DNA of 64,000 nt from Eubacteriales bacterium (GTDB taxonomy: Bacteria > Bacillota > Clostridia > Christensenellales > CAG-138): assembly GCA_021373115.1 (NCBI GenBank), contig JAJFTI010000007.1, positions 1-64,000 on the forward strand, given 5' to 3'. Made by a program: the position numbers and the translations under genes. Below, piece after piece: positions 2,721-29,561 of this stretch. Numbering within the stretch: position 1 is the stretch's first letter; the number at the start of each line of letters is the position of its first letter. The notes under the pieces are model-generated. The model was not told the DNA's origin, searched no databases, and saw nothing but the letters and a program-made list of their open reading frames with translations.

Positions 2721-3146
2721 ATGAAACAACCCGCGATTCTCGTTATCGATGGACAGGGCGGCCGCATCGGCAGTCTGCTGATCGAAGGCCTGCTCCAGCG
2801 CCTGCCGAGTGCAGATATTGCAACTGTCGGCACAAACAGCATTGCAACGAGCACCATGATGAAGGCGGGCGCAAAACGCGGCGGCACAGGTGAAAACGCC
2901 GTCCTCGTCAACGCGCGCACGGCGGATTATATTCTCGGTTCGATCGGCATCGTGATTGCGGACTCCATGATGGGTGAAATCTCTCCCGCCATCGCCGCTG
3001 CGATCGGCCAAAGTCCCGCCGCGCGGATTCTCGTTCCGCTGAATCTTTGCAACAGTTTTGTCGCCGGTCTTTCCCCCGCGCCGGTGAAGGAGCTCATCTC
3101 GCTTGCGCTGGACGAACTTCAGCGCAGAATGGCGGAACAAGCGTAG
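2721..3146 (+). CDS. DUF3842 family protein
   Basis: A 141-aa protein with a dinucleotide-fold-like start ILVIDGQGGRIGSLLIEGL, then TVGTNSIATSTMMKAGA, ENAVLVNA, and GSIGIVIADSMMGEI. This arrangement is typical of DUF3842, a family from anaerobic Clostridia with no assigned biochemical function; the glycine-rich start hints at nucleotide binding. ATG 2721 is chosen over ATG 2706 because GGAAAGG lies 7 bases upstream of it. It follows ispDF after a 90-base gap and may be co-transcribed. Confidence 0.8.
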   Translation: MKQPAILVIDGQGGRIGSLLIEGLLQRLPSADIATVGTNSIATSTMMKAGAKRGGTGENAVLVNARTADYILGSIGIVIADSMMGEISPAIAAAIGQSPAARILVPLNLCNSFVAGLSPAPVKELISLALDELQRRMAEQA

Positions 3147-3173: not shown

Positions 3174-3202
3174 TTGACAGCCGCAAGAGCTTTGTTTACA
3201 AT
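3174..3202 (+). promoter_or_regulatory. Strong sigma-A promoter of the ECF S-component transcript
   Basis: TTGACA at 3174-3179, a 17-bp spacer and TACAAT at 3197-3202. Transcription should begin near 3209, just before the structured leader. Confidence 0.85.
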
Positions 3203-3213
3203 CATTTTGTAAT

Positions 3214-3323
3214 GTCCGCCACGAAGGCGGACGAAACCCCGTTCGTATTCCTTTCTTTCGAGCAATGCAGCCACGAAGGCGGCAGTCCCGGTTCAGCCGG
3301 GCAGGCTTCGCGGTTGTTTTTTT
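3214..3323 (+). promoter_or_regulatory. Unrecognised structured leader with twin ACGAA hairpins and a competing terminator
   Basis: Hairpin 1 (3214-3232) is a perfect 7-bp stem with loop ACGAA. Hairpin 2 (3266-3284) has the same loop and a 7-bp stem with one A-G mismatch; the two share GCCACGAAGGCGG exactly. Hairpin 3 (3287-3301) is CCCGG/CCGGG. Bases 3268-3278 in hairpin 2 can instead pair with 3306-3316 (10 of 11 positions, one G-U) to enclose hairpin 3 and form a terminator followed by seven T. Hairpin 2 and the terminator cannot coexist. I do not recognise the RNA class; it is not TPP, cobalamin, THF, preQ1 or a T-box. Confidence 0.7.
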
Positions 3324-3362
3324 GTGTCTGAAAATCGGAATATAGAAAAGGAGTTTTCGAAC

Positions 3363-3899
3363 ATGTATCGCTTTTCCATGACCAGCACCAAACGAATGAT
3401 TCTGGCGGGTCTCTGCGTCGCGCTCGGCGTCGTGCTGCCATTCGCATTCCACTCCATTGCCAACGCGGGCAGTATTTTTCTGCCGATGCATATTCCCGTT
3501 TTGCTCTGCGGCCTGATCTGCGGCTGGCCATACGGTCTTGCCTGCGGCGTACTTGCGCCGCTGCTCTCCAGCTTGATTGTCGGCATGCCGTCGATGGCCT
3601 ATCTGCCAAGCATGCTCTGCGAGCTCGCGGTCTACGGTTTTGCATCCGGTTTGCTGATGCGCTGGGTTAAAACAGGCAAATTACTTGCCGACCTCTACCT
3701 CTCTCTGGCGGGCGCCATGCTGCTTGGCCGACTCGTCTTCGGCCTGCTCAACGCGCTGCTCTTCCGCGCGGGGGAGTATTCCGTCGCCATGTGGACGACC
3801 GCCGCGTTCGTCACCGCCCTGCCGGGCATCGTCATCCAGCTCGCGGTTATCCCCGTACTTGTTCTCGCGCTGAAAAAGGCGAAGCTGATCGCGGAATAA
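3363..3899 (+). CDS. ECF transporter S component, substrate unassigned
   Basis: A 178-aa hydrophobic protein with about six membrane segments, belonging to the ECF transporter S-component type that captures a vitamin and hands it to the EcfAAT module. Features seen: HSIANAGSIFLPMHIPVLLCG near residues 29-50, GWPYGLACGVLAPLLSSL and GMPSMAYLPSMLCELAVYG, a pattern common in PF12822-like proteins. ATG 3363 is preferred over an upstream in-frame ATG at 3324 because AAAAGGAG lies 9 bases before it. The neighbouring cobalamin operon makes a corrinoid or corrinoid precursor an obvious guess, but its leader is not a cobalamin riboswitch, so the substrate remains open. Confidence 0.8.
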   Translation: MYRFSMTSTKRMILAGLCVALGVVLPFAFHSIANAGSIFLPMHIPVLLCGLICGWPYGLACGVLAPLLSSLIVGMPSMAYLPSMLCELAVYGFASGLLMRWVKTGKLLADLYLSLAGAMLLGRLVFGLLNALLFRAGEYSVAMWTTAAFVTALPGIVIQLAVIPVLVLALKKAKLIAE

Positions 3900-11250: not shown

Positions 11251-11317
11251 TGAAAAAATCGCGTGCCGTTCTGTCTGCGACGCATAGCTTCACCCCACCC
11301 CAGGAGCATTTCCATAT

Positions 11318-11502
11318 GCAGACAGGTCTCCCGGCTTAGCTTCTTCCTACTTGGACGCCTTCCCGCGCGCGTTGCGCAGTGGCTTTTTATGTCCGTTCGT
11401 CGGCTTCACGGTTACTGGGGTAGCTCGGAATTTGCATCCGTATTCCCTTGGCGGAATCGTCCGCCAGCGCCTCTTCCGGCGCAGGTGCATACACTATTCA
11501 TT
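11318..11502 (-). promoter_or_regulatory. Cobalamin riboswitch upstream of the btu/cob operon
   Basis: Read on the minus strand: GGGAATACGGATGCAAATTCC, a B12-box-like CCCAGTAACCGTGAAGCC, AAAGCCACTG, GGGAAGG and the highly conserved 3' block AGCCGGGAGACCTGTCTGC ending at 11318. The order and spacing match the adenosylcobalamin riboswitch. High cobalamin should reduce expression of the whole btuFCD-cobT-cobU-cobS-cobC operon through the terminator at 11214-11250. Confidence 0.95.
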
Positions 11503-28967: not shown

Positions 28968-29561
28968 TTGGCGTACAGCGACGTAAAGCAGAATAGCGTA
29001 CTGGTCGTTTCGGGATCGGAACGCACCCGCGAAACCCTTGCGGGCGTGTTTGATTCCACGCGCTATGCGCCCGTCGTTTCCCGCGGTTCCGCCGCCGAGG
29101 TGCGCCGGCTCGTGCTCGATTCGCCGTTTTCGCTGGTGTTTATCAATACGCCGCTCCCGGATGAACCCGGCGCGCAGCTCGCACTCGATCTGTCCCGAAA
29201 CCGCAACTGCTGCGTGGCGCTGCTCGTACCGGGGGACAGCTACGATCAGGTCAGCGATCAGGTGGAGGATGCGGGCGTACTTACGCTCAGCAAGCCCTGT
29301 TCGGCGCAGCAGCTGCGTCAGGCGGCGGCCATGATGAGCGCAACGAGGGTCAAGCTCGCGGATCTCGAAAAGAAGACCGCGACGCTGGAAGAGAAAATGG
29401 AGGAGGTTCGCCTGGTCAACCGCGCGAAGTGGATGCTCATTGAGCGGCGCGGCATGGACGAGGCCACCGCCCACCGGTATATTGAGAAGCTGGCGATGGA
29501 CGCCCGCCAGACGCGTCGACTCGTCGCGCAGACGCTGATCCGATCGCTGGATAACGACTGA
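28968..29561 (+). CDS. ANTAR-domain RNA-binding antiterminator with degenerate receiver
   Basis: A 197-aa regulator. Residues 10-120 form a response-regulator-like receiver (VLVVSGSERTRETLAGVFDS), but the phosphorylatable aspartate is replaced: the segment reads LVFINTPLPDEPG with N60 at the acceptor site, and the acidic pair near residue 15 is absent. A coiled coil (LEKKTATLEEKMEEVRLVNR) leads into the ANTAR helices WMLIERRGMDEATAHRYIEK and MDARQTRRLVAQTLI. ANTAR proteins bind paired hexaloop hairpins in nascent RNA and prevent termination. It starts at TTG 28968 with GGGAGG 6 bases upstream. The leaders of both glutamine synthetases are the natural targets. Confidence 0.88.
   Translation: MAYSDVKQNSVLVVSGSERTRETLAGVFDSTRYAPVVSRGSAAEVRRLVLDSPFSLVFINTPLPDEPGAQLALDLSRNRNCCVALLVPGDSYDQVSDQVEDAGVLTLSKPCSAQQLRQAAAMMSATRVKLADLEKKTATLEEKMEEVRLVNRAKWMLIERRGMDEATAHRYIEKLAMDARQTRRLVAQTLIRSLDND

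Follow-up and report, generated by a model that had tools for sequence, protein, structure and literature searches.

An ECF-type S-component gene of a Eubacteriales bacterium (Clostridia; Christensenellales) is preceded by a conserved antitermination leader, almost certainly a real, widespread and unclassified attenuator. Its best explanation, to which we give a probability of about one half in its broad form and a lower one with all inferred details taken together, is an antitermination switch of two hairpins, to which the protein DUF3842 probably binds and which induces the import of nickel, or of a precursor of a nickel cofactor, under short supply. As read from sequence comparison and predicted folds, its constant elements are a terminator fold that forms by default, covarying hairpins of the form C-(A)NGAA-G, and a last hairpin that overlaps the terminator. 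The stretch of DNA analysed, 64,000 nucleotides of contig JAJFTI010000007.1, is termed the window in what follows; its features around the leader are these:

2724..3146, + strand: gene for DUF3842 (PF12953; Pfam E 3.9e-47), the proposed trans-acting partner, directly upstream of the leader and co-occurring with it
3174..3202, + strand: sigma-70-type promoter, near consensus, from sequence (TTGACA 3174-3179, 17-nt spacer, TACAAT 3197-3202)
3213..3233, + strand: hairpin 1 (HP1), TGTCCGCC-ACGAA-GGCGGACG, 8 pairs, at the RNA 5' end and outside the terminator; from sequence, folding and covariation
3234..3265, + strand: inter-hairpin linker, varying among relatives
3266..3284, + strand: hairpin 2 (HP2), the antiterminator, TGCAGCC-ACGAA-GGCGGCA, 6 pairs and one mismatch; from sequence, folding and covariation
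3268..3323, + strand: intrinsic terminator, arms 3268-3278 and 3306-3316, seven T at 3317-3323, exclusive with HP2; from sequence and folding
3287..3302, + strand: apical hairpin of the terminator, CCCGGTTCAGCCGGGC; from folding and relatives
3350..3353, + strand: ribosome-binding site GGAG, from sequence
3363..3899, + strand: gene for the ECF-type S component (PF12822; Pfam E 9.6e-16), with a PMHIP motif invariant in the S-component alignment

An earlier note on this DNA had described the promoter, the twin ACGAA hairpins and a terminator with seven T that excludes HP2, and all are present on direct reading. Both hairpins contain GCCACGAAGGCGG, of which one further exact copy occurs elsewhere in the genome; this third copy was rejected as another leader, as it reads as unrelated coding sequence. 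In RNA folding the terminator form is the minimum-energy fold of the window leader (-45.2 kcal/mol, z -2.0), and forcing HP2 in the full leader carries a penalty of 4-6 kcal/mol. HP2 does fold in a transcript ending at 3290, that is, before the 3' arm of the terminator has been made. HP2 and the terminator thus exclude each other, with the terminator as the default, and since the last hairpin overlaps the terminator sequence, whatever stabilises that hairpin permits read-through. Antitermination-type control, which the note had deduced from this mutual exclusion, is supported by the folding and by conservation of the layout. Minimum-energy folds of single leaders bear the switch out less fully: 24 of 55 show explicitly how the last matched hairpin pairs in the alternative form; in the rest the apical hairpin was matched instead, or the terminator was not resolved by the fold.

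Homologous S genes of the order and of the class have leaders of the same plan: HP1 close behind the -10 box, as in the window, then HP2 after a linker that is free to vary, and a terminator formed from HP2 sequence, in many cases with an apical hairpin ahead of it. The hairpin tips in these relatives are C-ANGAA-G or C-NGAA-G, in two or three copies per leader, and the loop variants (ACGAA, AGGAA, ATGAA, AAGAA, AGAA) leave the second base free. In several relatives the apical terminator hairpin bears an (A)NGAA loop as well. Spacing from loop to loop is mostly 40-75 nt; some hairpin copies are adjacent, and the linker ranges freely from 20 to >100 nt. A scan of all loci of the S-gene family fetched up to that stage gave 49 hairpin clusters (45 distinct), every one just upstream of an S gene and on its strand, against 0 in 1.7 Mb of reversed control sequence. 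Pairing was then scored around every C(A)NGAAG word, so that it was not selected for: three or more further base pairs flank 68-71% of the words in the 300 nt that precede S genes and 6-7% of those elsewhere in the same loci, a 10-fold difference.

The stems covary. In 43 leaders the covariation score is 0.583; shuffles give 0.210 (sd 0.018), sliding the structure gives no more than 0.12, and 104 cells are changed on both sides; this alignment was itself fitted to the structure, having been made to a covariance model built from 16 leaders. A 16-sequence alignment that was not fitted to structure, whose members were picked for having hairpins, scores 0.372 against 0.172 in shuffles. Genome-wide, model matches at E <1e-4 are all S-gene leaders, essentially one per genome. 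Intermediate matches such as G032:C118, G036:C55, G060:C61 and G209:C56 were dropped, being single hairpins or coding where read. The covariance-model check across Clostridia that the earlier note had suggested has therefore found strong covariation in the stems and ACGAA-type loops kept upstream of homologous S genes.

The leader belongs to no family in Rfam 15: over the window leader nothing matches at the gathering threshold, a permissive one adds two microRNA matches that are due to chance, and the leaders in 18 other loci have no match. A known riboswitch family was rejected on this ground, the guanidine-II and NiCo models included. The note had predicted a place outside existing Rfam families, and had named missing conservation and a confident Rfam match as the outcomes that would speak against it; the window and the 18 loci bear the prediction out, and neither of those outcomes occurred. 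A literature search, subscription papers excepted, found no described motif resembling the twin-hairpin leader and no mention of DUF3842. The loop of guanidine-II (mini-ykkC) is an ACGR tetraloop, and the likeness to this class remarked on in the note holds for the tandem layout, with short hairpins and near-identical loops that start with A and contain G. Otherwise the likeness is superficial, since the leader has (A)NGAA loops with a C-G closing pair and a second base that varies, matches nothing in Rfam and precedes different genes. The NiCo (czcD) riboswitch, typically found with efflux genes, binds metal through an aptamer of several helices, and NikR is a DNA-binding repressor; both, like the leader, concern nickel/cobalt transport, and the leader matches neither.

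What the leader does track is DUF3842. In 61 related genomes this protein is encoded in 18 of the 18 with a leader and in 8 of the 43 others (p 1e-9), the strictly unbiased count being 17 of 17: sixteen leaders were found upstream of S genes, one (G018) by the covariance model, and one (G032) as a weak model match accepted for its position between DUF3842 and a cbiM gene. Among S-positive genomes the figures are 16/16 with a leader and 1/18 without (p 1.5e-8). These p-values are too small, since close relatives do not count as independent cases; even so, the genomes with a leader span 14 genera. The lone exception among S-positive, leader-less genomes (G056) carries one hairpin of this kind ahead of its S gene, and a genome scored leader-negative (G060) proved to have a leader in front of CbiM. 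In a second set of 50 genomes, divided by presence of the leader ahead of the search for DUF3842, the counts were 27/28 with a leader and 3/22 without; the one leader genome lacking the gene (G267) is a MAG. In 23 of these 28 leader genomes DUF3842 lay outside the fetched locus, the gene usually being >5 kb from the leader. A model scan of 196 genomes of the class, where the DUF3842 background is 71/196, gave 11 with matches at E <0.01, all DUF3842-positive and with S or CbiM as target; some of the 11 had entered the model via DUF3842 loci, and G173, G065, G196 and G113, in which leader and DUF3842 are on different contigs, had not.

This tracking of a trans-encoded gene suggests a protein partner, and we lean modestly towards DUF3842 itself as the protein that reads the leader and would bind its RNA. 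Its predicted structure is a high-confidence Rossmann-like model; a fold search gave nothing above TM 0.52 among the matches listed, all generic Rossmann folds and none a known RNA-binding relative.

Nickel or the nickel-pincer cofactor is what the genes behind the leader point to. S genes are not the only targets: the leader stands before CbiM in at least nine loci (L184, L192, L197, L198, L201, L207, L148, L257, L277), often in the order CbiM-Q-O followed by DUF3842 and CooT; before the gene for a FecCD permease, immediately behind DUF3842 in a genome that has no S gene; and, directly behind DUF3842, before two genes for small membrane proteins followed by larE-larB-larC (L233). CooT adjoins DUF3842 in 15 of 61 DUF3842 loci, with CODH/ACS genes near in several, and S lies beside LarC or LarBCE in three other loci (L278, L061, L104). 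LarA homologues occur in 13/18 leader genomes and 12/43 others (p 0.002), five of the 18 having none above the cut-off. The common denominator of the targets would be nickel and the nickel-pincer nucleotide (NPN), LarBCE, CooT and CODH favouring nickel over cobalt for CbiM, and the evidence tips slightly towards nickel or NPN as the signal. The two small membrane proteins beside lar genes are adjacent to each other and have no Pfam/NCBIfam family (L233 3994-4727, - strand; L278 4137-4838, + strand); in G008 this pair follows S and LarC. They are candidate components of a nickel transporter.

For the S component of the window, comparison with known structures by sequence gives only distant likeness to RibU and FolT and no substrate. 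A gene for a uridine-kinase-like protein lies next to S, often just after it, in 34 of 80 loci (e.g. L095 5535-6599, L040 2225-3310). LarC was absent from all 16 S-leader genomes of the order and was rejected as the general nickel user of S genomes, which led to the idea of salvage: S and the kinase might import and re-phosphorylate an NPN-type nucleoside. Most S-leader genomes of the order, that of the window included, have LarA homologues; S is present in 15 of 18 LarA-positive, LarC-negative genomes (p 0.006), and its overall association with LarA (p 0.04) is suggestive only. The literature search, with the same exception of subscription papers, found no NPN transporter or salvage system. 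The uridine-kinase-like protein often has an uncharacterised N-terminal domain of ~180 aa, and in two genomes the kinase gene begins with a second CNGAAG hairpin pair, which may be a coding coincidence (L209 1611, L213 1611). A small SAM methyltransferase is encoded directly beside S genes (L072 1980-2552, L111 5544-6128 and others), mainly in loci with neither leader nor DUF3842.

Several other accounts of the leader have to be weighed. That an ordinary terminator coincides with chance repeats and regulates nothing, as a GC-rich region with a stable terminator might suggest, is refuted by the conservation, the covariation, the position and the absence of clusters from the controls, and keeps practically no weight. 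A closer precedent is the dual-hexaloop site of ANTAR proteins (EutV/EutW, NasR, AmiR), where two small hairpins, the second overlapping and exclusive with an intrinsic terminator, keep a C-G closing pair and an A and a G in the loop (PMC3369931, PMC8934654) while the stems are free to covary, all as in the leader. An ANTAR-domain response regulator could then bind the hairpins as EutV does. This is largely refuted and very improbable: the leader loops are (A)NGAA, of 5 or 4 nt in nearly all hairpins, and not the hexaloop AxxGxx (A1, G4); the linker is usually >20 nt, against 5-12 in eut sites; the targets are nickel-linked importers; and an ANTAR domain, found in 8 of the 18 leader genomes (p 1), does not track the leader. 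An ANTAR regulator was rejected as reader because it is missing from more than half of the leader genomes, the ten without it including genomes 97-99% complete.

A true riboswitch, with a small molecule or metal as the direct ligand of the tandem loops and DUF3842 no more than another member of the regulon, would account for compact loops conserved in all target leaders, would in principle dispense with the protein, and would recall guanidine-II in its tandem layout. We regard it as unlikely. Some five conserved loop positions per hairpin and a free linker are not much to build an aptamer from, nearly every leader genome encodes DUF3842 even where the two are unlinked, and a ligand stabilising HP2 would turn an importer on when that ligand is abundant. 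The vitamin-sensing riboswitch that the earlier note had suggested is not supported: the leader tracks DUF3842, its other targets are nickel-linked, and a sense in which binding gives ON is wrong for substrate feedback on an uptake gene. Because hairpin binding favours HP2 and read-through, one expects a binding factor that acts under short supply, and the architecture suggests that this direction suits an apo-protein sensor more than a riboswitch whose ligand is the imported substance. The hairpins might also be read by a protein other than DUF3842, with DUF3842 providing the nickel or cofactor signal at an earlier step. A dimeric protein would go well with two hairpins, DUF3842 is unlike known RNA-binding folds, and the alternatives tested comprise ANTAR and CooT only, CooT having been rejected as it is found in 2/61 genomes and, at 1/18 leader genomes, does not track the leader. 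This reading is quite improbable, as the second factor must share the distribution of DUF3842 and none is encoded beside all target types, whereas DUF3842 itself adjoins CbiM, FecCD, lar and many S genes.

In the preferred reading, a switch bound by DUF3842, the protein would bind the hairpin tips by analogy with ANTAR proteins. While nickel or the nickel-pincer cofactor is scarce it would hold the second hairpin folded and so allow read-through; once supply is sufficient it would release the leader, and transcription would terminate. The genes so controlled would be importers, CbiMQO in some lineages and the PF12822 S component in the window, which probably imports nickel or a nickel-cofactor precursor; a uridine-kinase-like partner would fit re-phosphorylation of an imported nucleoside. 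Against the role of DUF3842 stand its Rossmann-like fold with no known RNA-binding relative, the leader genome without it, and a co-occurrence that could reflect shared nickel biology only. Against nickel in the window stands its genome, in which LarC was not found and a search for true CODH gave weak matches only, so that the nickel user is a LarA homologue at most; the leader genomes without LarA above the cut-off count on the same side. A stronger version, possible and held tentatively, makes DUF3842 the first member of a new RNA-binding metalloregulator family in Clostridia, a protein that would sense nickel or NPN and control import genes through the dual hairpins it holds open, with S and the kinase forming a salvage route for the precursor.

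Control of nickel import without NikR is little understood in anaerobic Clostridia, and there the leader may serve as a regulon marker for nickel import and for NPN transport and salvage. It offers a candidate function for DUF3842 and suggests what a widespread orphan ECF S component may transport. Should a protein indeed read the hairpins, antitermination logic like that of ANTAR dual hairpins has evolved with an unrelated protein fold.

A second S-component gene of the window is likewise controlled by a leader: that of a ThiT-like ECF thiamine S component (293-976, - strand) lies downstream of a TPP riboswitch (1038-1135, - strand) that is just at the Rfam threshold, whereas no TPP match is found at the leader of the PF12822 S component. 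A cobalamin riboswitch (11304-11488, - strand) lies near an apparent cobalamin biosynthesis gene cluster. Also present are a gene for an ANTAR domain (29382-29540, + strand) and one for a fused IspD-IspF protein (1519-2631, + strand).
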